A stretch of 48,131 bases of DNA, taken from positions 1-48,131 of the forward strand of contig ONKP01000045.1 in assembly GCA_900318405.1 (NCBI GenBank), read 5' to 3'. The notes beneath the pieces were generated by a model. That model was given only the letters and a program-made list of their open reading frames with translations, was not told the DNA's origin and made no database searches. Position numbers and translations under genes: made by a program. Of this stretch, positions 1-5,489 are shown in pieces; within the stretch, counting starts at the first letter, position 1, and the number at the start of each line of letters is the position of its first letter. Source of the DNA: an uncultured Eubacteriales bacterium. Its GTDB lineage: Bacteria; Bacillota; Clostridia; Lachnospirales; Lachnospiraceae.

Positions 1-1950
1 CGCGCCTTCAATTGCCGTCGTGGTGAGCGGATTCTGGCTGACCTTGTCGTACAGCACAGTCTCGATGCCGGCCGCCTTCAGACTGTCGTTCACGCGGTCA
101 TACAGTCCCGACTTCTTCGCGCTCGAATGGCCGGTGACGATCAGCGCCTTCTTTCCGTAAGGGCTGGCGAGTGTTCCCACCTGCTTTACCTTGCCGGGGC
201 CAAAAACAATGTTGACCGGCAGGAAATAACTGAAATCTTCTTTTCTGACTGTCGTTCCGGTTTTTGCAGCAGAGGATACCCTGTCGAGTGCCGCCGCCAC
301 TTCGGCGTCGTCCATCGTTGCCGCCGCTATGCCGGAAGATGCAGCCGCAGAACCGGCAGGCACTGCAGAAGCTACAGGTGATGCAGCTGTTGTATTGGAC
401 ATAGCCGCAGCTGTTCCTGTCGCAGGAACCGCCGGCTGTGCTATGCCGCTCTCCTCTTTGGCTTCTTCCGCTGCGATCGCAGCCGCAGCCTCTCTCTCCT
501 TCGCGTATTCCTTATCGAGCTCAGCATTGGCAACCACCTTGATCGTGCCGAATTTCTCGCCGTATTTGGCCTTGCATACAATATAGAAGATAACGCCGAT
601 TGCGGACCAGCCGAGGACGATCGCCCACTCCATCGGAGCCAGTGTAGCGCCGGTGCCGGGGATAATGTACATGACGATCATGAAGCCGGACATGAGAACT
701 GCCATCGCGCCGACAAATTTATAATGCTTCACCTTGTAAGGTCTCGGCATATACGGCTCTTTCTTACGAAGGATGACAAACGAGATCGCAACCATGCAGT
801 ATGCCAGGCAGCATGCGAGGTTGCCGGCATCAACGATCCAGGTCAGCATTTTTCTTCCGAGAAGCGGTGCCAGGCAGCTCAGAAGGCCGATTACAAGCAG
901 TGCATTGGTCGGGGTCTTGTACTTCGGATGCAGTTTTCCGAAGCTCTCCGGGATCATGTAGGATGTCGCCATGGAATACATGGCACGGCTTCCGCCGATC
1001 AGGAAGGAGTTCCAGCTTGTCACGATACCGCAGAGACCGCCGACGATCAGTACCTTCGCCATGACACTGCTGTTGAAGGCCCGCGCCATTGCATCTGCTG
1101 TCACAAGGCCGGAACCTGAATCCGTTGAAGCAGCCAGCTGCTCCGGGGACATCACGAGGCCGACAGCCAGGATGATCAGGGCGTAAAAACTAACGGCGAG
1201 GATAATCGAGAGCAGAAGCATCTTCGCTATTTTTTTCAGAGGAACGTTGATCTCCTCCGCCGCCTGCGGGATGACATCAAATCCGATGAAGTAGAACGGG
1301 CTCATCATGGCTACGCGGATGACATTGACTGCCATGCTGCTGCCGCTGTCGCCGTGGAACATCTGACTCGTCAGATTGGAAGGATCACCCTTGATCGCAG
1401 ATCCGACGATCAGCAGGATACCTGCGCCGCCGATGATGCAGGTGAGGATCGTCTGCATAATAGCTACGGTCTTCGCACCGCGGATATTGATCCAGGTGAT
1501 GAGAACAGACAGACCAATGGCTGCGGCAAGCCAGGTCGCGTATACATCAAAACCGGCCACCGTGTACAGATAGCCCTGCAGGAATGCCGGCCAGAGATAC
1601 GTGATGATCGTAGGAAGCGCGCACGCCTCAAAGCACACAACACTGACATATCCGAGGATGATCGCCCAGGTGCAGACAAAGGATCCGTTCGCTCCCATGG
1701 CGCGGAAGCTGAACACGTGCTCGCCGCCGCACTCCGGCATGGCCGGTGTCAGCTCGGCGTAGGTCAGACCGATGAAGAAGATCATGATACCGCCGATCAC
1801 GAAGCCGAGCATGGCGCCGATCACGCCGCCTCTCTCGATCCAGTCACCGGTGGAGACAACCCATCCCCATCCGATCATGGCGCCGAAAGCTATCACAAGG
1901 ATATCCCACGCGCTGAAAACTTTGTCGAATTCCGATTGTTGTTTTTCCAT
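1..1950 (-). CDS. APC amino-acid permease fused to iron-containing alcohol dehydrogenase (3' end outside window)
   Basis: One uninterrupted frame of 650 codons starts at an ATG behind AGGAGG and runs off the left window edge. Residues 1 to about 468 are an APC-superfamily permease: the first helix carries GAMIGWGWVVS, followed by about a dozen hydrophobic segments and a mid-protein SPFYFIGFDVIPQAAEE motif. Residues about 470-570 are a charged, then Ala/Pro/Ser/Thr-rich linker. From about 571 the sequence matches the start of group III (iron-containing) alcohol dehydrogenases: PVNIVFGPGKVKQVG, then GKKALIVTGHSSAKKSGL and a downstream NP. I read the frame codon by codon across the linker and found no stop. 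With the neighbouring GABA-type aminotransferase, a role in GABA uptake and reduction of succinic semialdehyde to 4-hydroxybutyrate is plausible but inferred. The metal ligands of the ADH lie outside the window, so its activity cannot be judged. Confidence 0.85.
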   Translation of the reverse strand, partial: MEKQQSEFDKVFSAWDILVIAFGAMIGWGWVVSTGDWIERGGVIGAMLGFVIGGIMIFFIGLTYAELTPAMPECGGEHVFSFRAMGANGSFVCTWAIILGYVSVVCFEACALPTIITYLWPAFLQGYLYTVAGFDVYATWLAAAIGLSVLITWINIRGAKTVAIMQTILTCIIGGAGILLIVGSAIKGDPSNLTSQMFHGDSGSSMAVNVIRVAMMSPFYFIGFDVIPQAAEEINVPLKKIAKMLLLSIILAVSFYALIILAVGLVMSPEQLAASTDSGSGLVTADAMARAFNSSVMAKVLIVGGLCGIVTSWNSFLIGGSRAMYSMATSYMIPESFGKLHPKYKTPTNALLVIGLLSCLAPLLGRKMLTWIVDAGNLACCLAYCMVAISFVILRKKEPYMPRPYKVKHYKFVGAMAVLMSGFMIVMYIIPGTGATLAPMEWAIVLGWSAIGVIFYIVCKAKYGEKFGTIKVVANAELDKEYAKEREAAAAIAAEEAKEESGIAQPAVPATGTAAAMSNTTAASPVASAVPAGSAAASSGIAAATMDDAEVAAALDRVSSAAKTGTTVRKEDFSYFLPVNIVFGPGKVKQVGTLASPYGKKALIVTGHSSAKKSGLYDRVNDSLKAAGIETVLYDKVSQNPLTTTAIEGA

Positions 1951-2162: not shown

Positions 2163-2759
2163 TCACTCATTCAGCATTTCAATGTACATGAGCAGGTACT
2201 TTGTCGTCTTGTCCCATCCGAGACGGCTGCTGTCGATCAGAAGATCACGCTGTGTGCGGTCGCCCCTGTATGTTCCCGTGATATACTTGTGCCTTGAATG
2301 ATTCATCTCATCATTGTAGTCGATGATCTGCTTAGCCTCTTCCTCCGACACCTTCTTCTGCTCCATGATGGAGCGTACGCGCACATCCTTCGGTGCATAA
2401 ATGAAGAAATTCAGCACATCATCCCTGTCTTTCAGCAGGAAGTTGGCACTGCGTCCGATGATGACACAGGATGATTTTTCTGCCATCTTGTGAATAACCA
2501 TGGACTGTGTGTAAATAACACGGTTTGTCAGATTGGCGTATCTCGGTCCGAGCGAAGTCTCGAAGCTGTACTGAACACCGGTCTCCTGATCGGCTTTTTC
2601 GACGAGCCCACGATCTACACCGAGCTCATCAACGACCTTATCCACCAGATCACGGTCATAGTATTCAATCCCCAGCTTCTGTGAAAGCATCTTGCCGATC
2701 TGAGGACCTCCGGCTCCGTATTCGCAGCCGATCGTTATTATCAGGTGATCCCTCTCCAT
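2163..2759 (-). CDS. Cytidylate kinase-like family protein
   Basis: 198 residues. The ATG at 2759 is preceded by AGGAGG 7 bp away; a longer upstream reading would run into a palindromic repeat and is not supported. The N-terminus (HLIITIGCEYGAGGPQIG) resembles the P-loop region of the cytidylate-kinase-2 family. It is followed by YYDRDLVDKV and a C-terminal NHSRHKYITG segment typical of the family. Such proteins are P-loop NTPases of uncertain substrate and are often encoded beside transporters in Clostridia. It sits between the GABA-type aminotransferase and the permease-ADH fusion, all on the same strand. A terminator upstream of it suggests separate transcription from the aminotransferase. 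The real substrate is unknown; nucleotide kinase activity is only a family inference. Confidence 0.75.
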   Translation of the reverse strand: MERDHLIITIGCEYGAGGPQIGKMLSQKLGIEYYDRDLVDKVVDELGVDRGLVEKADQETGVQYSFETSLGPRYANLTNRVIYTQSMVIHKMAEKSSCVIIGRSANFLLKDRDDVLNFFIYAPKDVRVRSIMEQKKVSEEEAKQIIDYNDEMNHSRHKYITGTYRGDRTQRDLLIDSSRLGWDKTTKYLLMYIEMLNE

Positions 2760-2806
2760 GATCTTTCCTCCTGTAACAGCGTTTCCGCCGCTCTTCTTTT
2801 CAACGT

Positions 2807-2892
2807 TGTATAAGTCTACGCGCAAAGCCATAGTCGGCCTTGCACACCCTGCGGGTGAGCAGTCCGCCTCTGGCATGCGACGGACTTATACA
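2807..2892. repeat. 86-bp palindromic element with 10-bp inverted ends
   Basis: Perfect inverted ends TGTATAAGTC and GACTTATACA enclose several small hairpins, including CACCC-TGC-GGGTG and GTCCG/CGGAC. It has no coding potential and lies between the aminotransferase terminator and the kinase-like gene. Its build (inverted ends around nested GC-rich hairpins) is like the elements at 8521 and 11558, though the sequence differs. Confidence 0.6.
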
Positions 2893-3043: not shown

Positions 3044-4405
3044 TTACTCAGCCAGAGCCTCTTTGATGGACTCGTCGAAGATCTCGAGACCTCTCCTGGT
3101 CTGCTCATCTGTCATGCAGAGCGGAGCCAGGAAACGTACGCAGTTGCTTGCGGTACCTGCGTTCTCGATCAGAAGTCCTTTGTGAAGAGCATTCTGAATG
3201 ATCTTCTGGGTCAGCTCGGTAGCCGGCTCCTTGGTCTCCGGATCCTTTACGAACTCGATACCGATCATAGCGCCAAGTCCGCGGATATCGCCGATCACCG
3301 GATACTTCTTCTGCATTTCCTTGTAACCTGCGGTTACCATCTCGCCGATGTGACGTGCCTTTGCCGGGTAGTCTTCCTCGGTGTAGATCTTCATTGCTGC
3401 AAGAGCAGATGCGCAGGAAACCGGGTTGCCGCAGTATGTGCCGCCAATGGTTCCGGACTTTGCAGCATCCATAACCTCAGCACGGCCTGTGATAGCGGAG
3501 ATCGGCATACCACCGCCAAGAGACTTCGCAGTTGTGATGATATCCGGAGCAGCGCCTGCCTCAGCCCAGTACTCAGATGCGAAGTACTTACCGGTACGGC
3601 AGTTACCGCACTGAACCTCATCGGCGATAAGAAGGATACCATTCTCATCGCAGATCTTGCGGATTGCTTTTACCCATTCGATCGGAGCCGGAATGAATCC
3701 GCCTTCGCCCTGCAGCGGCTCAACCAGCATGCAGGCAACTTCATCGGCCGGTGTCAGCTCATCGAATACACGATACATACCGTCGATGTAGTACTGGATA
3801 GCTTCTTCTCTGCTGTATCCCTTCGGTGCACGATACAGATAAGGATACGGTGCTCTGTAAATGCCATCCGGGAACGGTCCCATGCCTTCGCAGAAAGCTT
3901 TCTTTGCTGTCAGAGCCATGGTCAGGTTGGTACGGCCGTGGAATGCGCCGCTGAAGCAGATGACATTCTTTCTTCCGGTGTAAGCCTTTGCGATCTTGAT
4001 TGCGTTCTCATCGCACTCAGCACCGGAGTTTGCGAAGTAGGTCTTGTTGTGATCACCGCGGCAGGGCATCTTCTTGTTCAGGCCCTCAGCGAGCTCTACA
4101 TATCCTTCATGACCTACGATGTTGAAGATCTCATGGAAATACCTGGGTGCCTGATCCTGAACAGCTTTTACAAGCTCCGGACGGGAATATCCGATATTCA
4201 GAACACCTACGCCGCCGATCCAGTCAAGGAACTTGTTTCCATCGATATCCTGGAACATAGCGCCCTCGCCGTGGTCAATCACGACGGGATAGGTCATGCC
4301 GCAGAGAGCCTTCGGGACATTCTCTTCTCTTCTCTTCAGAAACTCTTTGGTCTTCGGTCCAGGAATGCTGGTAACAATCTCAGGTAATTCATCACGTAAT
4401 GCCAT
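3044..4405 (-). CDS. Class III aminotransferase, 4-aminobutyrate aminotransferase type
   Basis: 453 residues, starting at the ATG behind AAGGAGGACAAAGCA; an upstream in-frame start would lie inside the leader terminator and is rejected. It has the class III PLP fold: YFANSGAE in the phosphate-binding region, SGAFHGRTNLTMALTAKK, ADEVQCGNCRTG with the ring-contacting Asp, and the PLP lysine near residue 295 in AKSLGGGMP. The overall pattern fits GabT-like enzymes, which convert GABA plus 2-oxoglutarate to succinic semialdehyde plus glutamate. Putrescine, 5-aminovalerate or ornithine aminotransferase remain possible. Its product would be an aldehyde, the natural substrate for the iron-ADH domain encoded downstream. 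Transcription is predicted from 4590-4618, through a leader with a strong terminator, next to a divergent PuuR-like regulator. Confidence 0.85.
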   Translation of the reverse strand: MALRDELPEIVTSIPGPKTKEFLKRREENVPKALCGMTYPVVIDHGEGAMFQDIDGNKFLDWIGGVGVLNIGYSRPELVKAVQDQAPRYFHEIFNIVGHEGYVELAEGLNKKMPCRGDHNKTYFANSGAECDENAIKIAKAYTGRKNVICFSGAFHGRTNLTMALTAKKAFCEGMGPFPDGIYRAPYPYLYRAPKGYSREEAIQYYIDGMYRVFDELTPADEVACMLVEPLQGEGGFIPAPIEWVKAIRKICDENGILLIADEVQCGNCRTGKYFASEYWAEAGAAPDIITTAKSLGGGMPISAITGRAEVMDAAKSGTIGGTYCGNPVSCASALAAMKIYTEEDYPAKARHIGEMVTAGYKEMQKKYPVIGDIRGLGAMIGIEFVKDPETKEPATELTQKIIQNALHKGLLIENAGTASNCVRFLAPLCMTDEQTRRGLEIFDESIKEALAE

Positions 4406-4443
4406 TGCTTTGTCCTCCTTAATGTCCCGGCGGTAACCGCCTG

Positions 4444-4583
4444 AAAAAATAAAAACGCCTTTCATGCAGTATTCCTGCATAAAAGACGTCTTTGTCTCTG
4501 AAAAATGTTCCGCTGTGCCATACAGCTAAATTGTCCTGTGCTCCATTTTATCGAACATCTTTTTCGTTCGATATCCTGAACAC
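4444..4583 (-). promoter_or_regulatory. Aminotransferase leader with intrinsic terminator and competing antiterminator pairing
   Basis: The roughly 178-nt 5' leader contains, on the minus strand, a hairpin of 19 continuous pairs (some G-U) with a 5-nt loop (arms 4475-4493 and 4451-4469). It ends in TTTTTATTTTTT and lies about 40 nt before the start codon. Near the 5' end is a second hairpin, TATCGAAC/GTTCGATA (4566-4573 and 4549-4556). The segment AAAAGATGTT (4554-4563) overlaps that hairpin and can pair over 10 bp, with wobbles, to GACGTCTTTT (4481-4490) in the 5' arm of the terminator. This is the layout of a transcription attenuator or riboswitch. I recognise no known riboswitch class in it. 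Confidence 0.6.
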
Positions 4584-4863: not shown

Positions 4864-4940
4864 TATAAATGCACTGTGCTGATACCGGCGTGCACATTCG
4901 CAGGGCATCATACGCGAGAAGAGACAGCGAGGACATTGCC

Positions 4941-5489
4941 ATGGATTATCTGGAACACAACATTTCTGAAAATCTCCATCGTTTCCGCACGATGCGCGGG
5001 TGGAGCCTGGATGACGCCGCTGAGCAGACTGGCGTGAGCAAAAGCATGCTCGCCCAGATTGAGAAGGGAACGGCCAATCCGTCGATCGGCACCCTGGGAA
5101 AAATAGCCTCCGGCCTCCGCATCGATTTCAACACCCTGACGAGCCCGCCGCCAATGGATTCCTGCCTGATCGAGGTTCTGAAGACGGAGCCGATCAAAAA
5201 CAGCGAAAACGGGTACCGGGTGTGGAACTGCTTTCCCTTTGAGGATAACCAGATGGTCGAGATCTATCGAATCGATCTCGATCCGAACGGCGTCTACTCC
5301 TGCCGCAGTCACGGTGAGAGAACCCGTGAGTATCTGTGCGTTACCGAGGGCGAGGTGGAAATACGCTTCGGAAAGGAACGACACATCGTCCGCAAAGACT
5401 GCTGCTTCCGGTTCGAATCGGACCGCCCGCACCAGTACATCGGCGGCAGCACGAAGAGCTCGTTCCTAATGTTCTTCCTGTCCTACTGA
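4941..5489 (+). CDS. XRE-family regulator with C-terminal cupin domain (PuuR-like)
   Basis: 182 residues. The ATG at 4941 is preceded by GAGGACATTGCC and begins directly with the DNA-binding domain, so the longer upstream reading is not used. Residues about 5-65 form an HTH_3 domain (LDDAAEQTGVSKSMLAQIEK), and about 100-180 a cupin barrel with conserved Gly, His and Glu positions (SHGERTREYLCVTEGEVEI). Proteins of this build include E. coli PuuR, which responds to putrescine and controls putrescine/GABA breakdown. It is transcribed away from the aminotransferase, so a role as local regulator of that locus is likely. The ligand is not shown by the sequence. Confidence 0.85.
   Translation: MDYLEHNISENLHRFRTMRGWSLDDAAEQTGVSKSMLAQIEKGTANPSIGTLGKIASGLRIDFNTLTSPPPMDSCLIEVLKTEPIKNSENGYRVWNCFPFEDNQMVEIYRIDLDPNGVYSCRSHGERTREYLCVTEGEVEIRFGKERHIVRKDCCFRFESDRPHQYIGGSTKSSFLMFFLSY

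Follow-up and report, generated by a model that had tools for sequence, protein, structure and literature searches.

Why would the gene for an amino-acid permease run on, without a stop codon, into the beginning of an iron-containing alcohol dehydrogenase (Fe-ADH)? The question is raised by the left edge of the window, by which we mean the whole stretch of DNA analysed (48131 bases). The window is the entire contig C45 (G000:C45) of a genome of 91 contigs that is 91.66% complete, and the frame in question, 650 residues free of stops (window 1-1950, minus strand), runs off the contig edge. Its ATG at 1950 is preceded by a strong RBS-like AGGAGG. The features of the locus are collected in Table 1. 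The first-pass annotation had described an APC permease in frame with an Fe-ADH, and both Pfam domains indeed score above their cut-offs: a full-length AA_permease_2 domain at residues 12-445 (134 bits, profile positions 1-422 of 427) and an Fe-ADH domain at residues 578-648 (58 bits), of which only PF00465 positions 1-72 lie in the window. The linker, originally called Ala/Pro-rich, is Ala-rich (33 of 102 residues) and not strongly Pro-rich, Ala and Pro together making up just 36%. A scan of start codons found no RBS-like in-frame start within 25 codons before the window ADH, and a free ADH made from an internal start was on these grounds rejected for the window.

Table 1. Features at the left end of the window (positions in the window; strand; supporting match or composition).
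Feature	Position	Strand	Support
Fe-ADH, N-terminal 78 residues, cut by contig edge	1..234	-	Pfam PF00465, 58 bits
Ala-rich frame-keeping linker, residues 471-572	235..540	-	33 Ala of 102
APC-superfamily amino-acid permease part, residues 1-470	541..1950	-	Pfam PF13520, 134 bits
Cytidylate-kinase-like gene, likely start 2759, directly upstream of fusion	2163..2876	-	PF13189, 165 bits
Class-III aminotransferase, GABA-AT-like, likely start 4405	3044..4480	-	PF00202, 380 bits
XRE-cupin regulator, divergent from cluster	4869..5489	+	HTH_3 and Cupin_2

The missing end of the ADH was sought elsewhere in the genome. A piece at G000:C46:2-652, outside the window, encodes what are likely its C-terminal 216 residues and ends in a stop codon. 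It is 77% identical to the ADH of a relative over residues 159-375 and contains the Asp, His, His and His metal ligands; the window part is 86% identical to the same relative's ADH over residues 1-78. About 80 residues fall between the two pieces, and the contigs were kept separate. By likeness and position the pieces likely belong to one gene, in which case the ADH continues with its Asp and three His, the point that the first-pass annotation had asked to have confirmed.

Since a contig edge truncates the window copy, the frame could be suspected of having arisen in the assembly of a single metagenome bin. Among 61 genomes searched, a fused permease of more than 70% identity was recovered from the window genome and from six relatives of the same genus (G002, G004, G005, G006, G008 and G011), while the remaining nine same-genus genomes gave weaker or no permease matches. 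The frame is intact in all six of these other assemblies, the complete fusions measuring 907-942 residues. The linker, and with it the distance between the domains, is 50, 51, 67, 67, 67 and 89 residues long in the relatives and 102 in the window, and the six fusions share on average 83% identity over the permease and 78% over the ADH, against 48% over the linker. Because the frame has held in 6/6 despite this variation in linker length and sequence, chance can be excluded. The permease row of G008 is identical to that of Bilifractor porci (contig NZ_VUMV01000003.1), which places the window's species in the genus of B. porci. Fusions are also found in Oliverpabstia intestinalis, Clostridium sp. 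MSJ-8, four Bifidobacterium species (including Bifidobacterium merycicum), M. cerevisiae and Megasphaera NM10. Their presence in the named-strain genomes of B. porci, O. intestinalis, B. merycicum and Clostridium sp. MSJ-8 refutes the artefact, to which we assign a negligible probability. At the level of sequence, the fusion is thus confirmed as a single polypeptide of an APC permease and a C-terminal group III Fe-ADH.

How widespread is this architecture? From a scan of named genomes, the best 80 of 479 loci were kept; together with seven loci from further genomes and the window they gave 88 rows, whose proportions are biased because the scan was ranked by likeness to the fused query. With ADHs sorted into types A to C, the fused rows numbered 41 of type A and 4 of type C, and the split rows 15 of type A and 22 of type B; 6 rows had no ADH downstream. 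One locus listed as split type A (L067) proved to be fused (891-residue frame), and four (L049-L052) were duplicates of the same genomes and were removed. Among the 84 distinct loci that result from this biased set, 42 are fused (38 type A, 4 type C) and 42 are unfused, 22 of the 84 using a different ADH, type B, which indicates that tethering is not required. An even sample of 397 Lachnospiraceae genomes, part of which overlaps the genomes of the named loci, contained 44 with any match at E 1e-120 and 14 with full-length fusions, the truncated window copy being the fifteenth. Thirteen of these rows cover the query in a single frame of at least 883 residues without stops, and G439 (927 residues, both domains) is the fourteenth. 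G343, G208 and G176 were rejected as fusions and left uncounted, since stops inside their long frames make them separate genes.

The first-pass annotation knew of no described example. This is consistent with the open-licence papers listed in literature searches, among which no title or abstract opening names an APC permease-Fe-ADH fusion, but the architecture is not rare: it was found in many other assemblies. With so many public genomes containing it, annotators will have come across it, and what looks new is the whole pattern. Carrier-enzyme fusions are a known kind. SulP-carbonic anhydrase, LplT-Aas and the CbrA-type transporter-kinases also combine a secondary carrier and a cytosolic catalytic domain in one chain, although they belong to other carrier and enzyme families than APC and Fe-ADH. 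In AdhE, entries of which are among the PDB matches, an Fe-ADH is likewise fused to another pathway protein, its partner being a soluble aldehyde dehydrogenase. The full permease domain is shared with APC permeases in general (PF13520; solved relative 5oqt, "Amino acid transporter"), from which the fusion differs by its C-terminal enzyme. Both ADH Pfam domains, the Asp and three His, GGGS and the fold are shared with group III Fe-ADHs (5yvm, ADH/D1; 3bfj, 1,3-propanediol oxidoreductase; FucO), from which the fusion ADH differs by its tether to a carrier, with 30-35% identity in structural alignments.

In split relatives the permease and ADH genes are adjacent, and in L120, L123, L127 and L128 they overlap by 4 bases. 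These unfused neighbours imply that the fusion arose by joining genes of one operon. In genera other than that of the window, 39-59 residues separate the two domains where they are fused; for split type-A loci the figure is 44-58, not counting L103, in which an aminotransferase sits between permease and ADH. An RBS-like in-frame ADH start is present in 7 of 13 split versus 4 of 38 fused type-A loci (best-80-of-479 set). On a permease tree built by a quick method, at least 3 changes between fused and split are required, or 2 once the long-branched L080 is left out. One locus (L118), inside the fused clade and split only through a shift in a single bin, was left out of the counts of changes and of internal starts. 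Several fusions, or one fusion with later fissions, would both fit this distribution.

The type-A ADH looks active. Ligand and NAD motifs are intact in all 40 complete type-A fusion rows (36 distinct loci; best-80-of-479 set), and a complete relative contains both the Fe-ADH and the ADH_Fe_C domain. An AlphaFold model of the fusion from an 80%-identical relative (942 residues, 35-row alignment) has a mean pLDDT of 84.6, with permease and ADH confident and 12 long helices in the permease part. The linker between these two confident domains is predicted to be disordered (pLDDT below 50 over 499-537 and 544-558), and with a pTM of 0.55 the two domains are not firmly placed relative to each other. 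The ADH half matches 5yvm with a TM score (target) of 0.89; all 50 matches listed in the fold search were of the ADH kind, which is uninformative on the permease half.

The genes around the fusion were compared across the best-80-of-479 set. A kinase-like gene is found no more than 400 bases upstream of the permease at 36 of the 38 fused-A, all 14 split-A, all 22 split-B and all 4 Megasphaera loci, and at 5 of the 6 that lack an ADH. The two fused-A misses are L062, with a flank of 139 bases, and L036, whose duplicate L051 was matched by a looser rule. The XRE-cupin regulator has relatives no further than 8 kb away at 7 of the 38 fused-A, 4 of the 14 split-A, 13 of the 22 split-B and 3 of the 6 ADH-less loci, and at none of the 4 Megasphaera loci. 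Counts of neighbouring aminotransferases within 8 kb are lower bounds, because many loci have short flanks: 27 of the 38 fused type-A loci have at least one of any kind. The GABA-AT-like type of the window (c1) accompanies 17 of the 38 fused-A, 10 of the 14 split-A and 3 of the 22 split-B loci, and none of the 4 type-C or 6 ADH-less ones; for an ArgD-like type (c8) the counts are, in the same order, 22/38, 10/14, 20/22, 4/4 and 4/6. The first-pass annotation had pointed to the neighbouring aminotransferase as GABA-type, and the gene does look GABA-AT-like. Its best solved relative is E. coli GabT (1sf2), of which it keeps R141, E211, K268 and R398, which we take to be active-site residues, with I50 replaced by Val; it scores 466 bits against TIGR00700, short of the cut-off of 507.

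Three gene orders are informative. On the 3.5-Mb contig of L144, c1, ADH-A, c8, the kinase-like gene, the permease and the XRE-cupin regulator are adjacent and all separate, with roles assigned by likeness of gene starts. L043 has the order PatA - GABA-AT-like (c1) - ADH-A - agmatine deiminase, in which the putrescine aminotransferase is above one model's cut-off and the agmatine deiminase above its own, along with genes read by eye as a polyamine ABC transporter. L103 has the permease, c1 and ADH-A in that order. These contexts point to omega-amine catabolism. In none of the loci looked at is an aminotransferase fused to the permease or the ADH. Six fused loci (L066, L067, L068, L071, L073 and L079) have an ornithine-cyclodeaminase-like gene (motif match, name by eye) and, within the stretch retrieved, lack a class-III aminotransferase; L068, L071 and L079 also have FAD-oxidoreductase-like genes, again named by eye. 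These six loci hint at another substrate there and argue against one universal substrate.

The fusion takes a different form in the Megasphaera family. Five of its 17 genomes, four of them Megasphaera, encode a full-length fused pseudo-ADH (L083, L085, L086, L087 and L133), and three have the permease without a fused ADH; G063 has a second, unfused permease. None of the four Megasphaera type-C rows has the Asp and three His ligands: all four places are replaced, by residues that differ row by row. GGGS has lost its third Gly and its Ser in 4/4, and PTTxGTGSE is broken, while the first two Gly and the Lys are kept. In the fifth fusion of the family the ADH is degenerate by alignment. We ruled out that the Megasphaera domains are type B, since they cluster within the fused type-A domains, where they form a degenerate type C, a placing that is tentative because the branches are very long. 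In the two closest pairs, dN/dS (NG86) is 0.12 and 0.19 for the pseudo-ADH part, versus 0.07 and 0.04 for the permease, with frames open; these values are rough, because silent sites are saturated in five of the remaining eight pairs, the last three of which are at 0.24-0.40. This suggests purifying selection on the pseudo-ADH in two close pairs, with constraint weaker than on the permease. AlphaFold predicts an Fe-ADH-like fold for it (pLDDT 80, pTM 0.81; best solved match 5yvm) from an alignment that included active ADHs. All four Megasphaera genomes with a pseudo-ADH have other Fe-ADHs. The Megasphaera rows show that catalysis by the tethered domain can be dispensed with, and the retention of the ADH half after loss of its active site suggests that attachment matters in its own right.

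A second partner was found on the same permease. In G437 (L142:651-2780, minus strand), a genome of another genus, it is fused to a cytidylate-kinase-like protein (709 residues; PF13189, 153 bits). In G475 (L155:1456-3296), from the same genus, the same join runs up to the contig end, 84% identical over residues 3-601. At E 1e-100, matches came from three of 48 genomes of this genus, these two and one more that showed just the permease part. Judging by these frames, two different operon partners, Fe-ADH and kinase-like protein, are joined to the same permease tail.

What could such a fusion do? We give even chances to the proposal that the fused permease-ADH is a membrane-tethered unit for uptake and reduction of omega-amino acids. 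Both ends of an APC permease are expected in the cytosol, and by this family topology the fusion tail and its ADH would be cytosolic. The permease may import an omega-amino acid or a diamine, whose amino group the class-III aminotransferase of the operon would pass on to a 2-oxoacid; the resulting semialdehyde would then be reduced by the tethered ADH, at the expense of NAD(P)H, to give an omega-hydroxy acid. The net effect would be an anaerobic electron sink that gains nitrogen. By way of the tether the reductase, and perhaps the aminotransferase and the kinase-like protein, would stay where the carrier opens into the cytoplasm. Going by the genes, the aldehyde would be made inside the cell, by an aminotransferase outside the fusion. 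The tether may serve to co-localise the partners, to promote oligomerisation of the carrier (Fe-ADHs form dimers or decamers) or to exchange substrate for product, rather than to channel an imported aldehyde in the literal sense entertained by the first-pass annotation. We count in favour of the proposal the conserved frame, the intact type-A motifs, the unfused neighbours, the gene orders and the second fusion partner, and against it that the aminotransferase, which would be needed before the ADH, is unfused in every locus looked at, that half of the distinct loci do without the fusion, that the curated models for permease and ADH score below their cut-offs, that PF11794 is scarce among the fusion carriers of the window's genus, that six fused loci have the ornithine-cyclodeaminase-like gene instead of an aminotransferase in reach, and that Megasphaera keeps the domain without its catalytic residues.

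GABA is the single most likely imported candidate, with a probability that we place somewhat short of even. Conversion of GABA via succinate semialdehyde to 4-hydroxybutyrate is the leading guess because of the GabT residues kept in c1 and because of L043. The GABA/4-hydroxybutyrate assignment made in the first-pass annotation is in this sense plausible, but many loci have an ArgD-like aminotransferase, and none of the curated NCBIfam cut-offs for permease or ADH was reached: the permease scores 53 bits against GabP (TIGR01773, cut-off 678), and the ADH of the complete relative 184 bits against 4-hydroxybutyrate dehydrogenase (NF058672, cut-off 500). An onward route to butyrate would presumably call for a member of PF11794, which we take to be the family holding AbfD, though wider than AbfD. 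PF11794 is present in 8 of 24 genomes tested and in 1 of 7 fusion-bearing genomes of the window's genus, so that 4-hydroxybutyrate would be the end product in most. GABA-to-butyrate conversion is unsupported in the window genome, which at 91.66% completeness has no PF11794 match. A separate observation concerns L045 (G007:C75:46000-65000), where a 38%-identical permease is close to a gene that looks by eye like a CoA-transferase and to a member of PF11794; this may be a separate locus of the 4-hydroxybutyrate type.

The unit may handle something else, such as taurine (sulfoacetaldehyde to isethionate) or an ornithine/lysine-type compound deaminated at its omega position by the ArgD-like aminotransferase, a reading we regard as rather doubtful. 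In taurine nitrogen assimilation by Bifidobacterium kashiwanohense, an importer, an aminotransferase and a metal-dependent alcohol dehydrogenase (M-ADH) are encoded in one cluster (PMC6616044). This cluster, with BkTauF as the M-ADH reductase, combines the same three functions in anaerobic gut bacteria as here and would, by analogy, be the nearest described logic; in the accessible part of that report BkTauF is not described as fused and no permease is named. The prevalence of the ArgD-like gene near fused type-A and split type-B loci also speaks for another substrate. However, going by spacing from the metal Asp, type A has its second His where BkTauF has Gln196 (PMC6616044, accessible part), and the SarD model (NF050025) gives 206 bits for a cut-off of 700. 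On these two counts, membership in TauF/SarD was rejected.

The preferred reading, a tethered unit for uptake and reduction, has also to be weighed against two accounts of why the domains are joined at all. The ADH part may chiefly be a structural or regulatory tether, an oligomeriser or sensor of the carrier, whose catalysis is secondary and was lost in Megasphaera. The retained pseudo-ADHs, with their open frames, low dN/dS in the closest pairs and predicted fold, are what it would lead one to expect; yet all 40 complete type-A rows retain every catalytic residue checked, three genomes of the family lack the domain and G063 has its second permease unfused, the dN/dS values are rough and indicate less constraint than on the permease, and the alignment behind the pseudo-ADH model contained active ADHs. 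We consider this account unlikely as the main explanation. More unlikely still is a near-neutral loss of the stop codon between neighbouring, probably translationally coupled genes, which would matter only as fixed 1:1 synthesis. The 4-base overlaps in four relatives, the similar inter-domain distances of fused and split loci outside the window's genus (L103 aside) and the scatter of both states on the tree are consistent with it. Against it, fusion is kept across two large clades and several families, a second partner is fused to the same tail, the linker of the window's genus has expanded with its frame preserved, and the pseudo-ADH has been retained. It is tempting to speculate further that the cytosolic tail of the permease is a docking hub for a membrane-bound omega-amino-acid unit, to which Fe-ADH and the kinase-like protein each became fused, and that in Megasphaera the ADH has turned into a pseudoenzyme under selection, with a part in controlling or assembling the carrier, a view that we hold only tentatively and on balance think improbable.

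A secondary carrier tied to a redox enzyme offers a natural test of spatial coupling between uptake and metabolism. Nature supplies the matched controls: fused, split, with the ADH replaced or absent, fused to a kinase, and fused without catalytic residues. The unit, as proposed, would point to an overlooked route for amine nitrogen and electron disposal in gut Lachnospiraceae, bifidobacteria and Megasphaera.

Other APC permeases are joined to signalling domains. Permeases of the family fused to HisKA, HATPase_c and Response_reg were observed at L148:705-3674, L149:787-3702 and L150:719-3562, the last from G010, a genome of the window's genus. These histidine kinase and receiver fusions look like transporter-derived sensors. 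In the same G010, an APC permease is fused to a GGDEF diguanylate cyclase domain (L151:1315-3522, minus strand).
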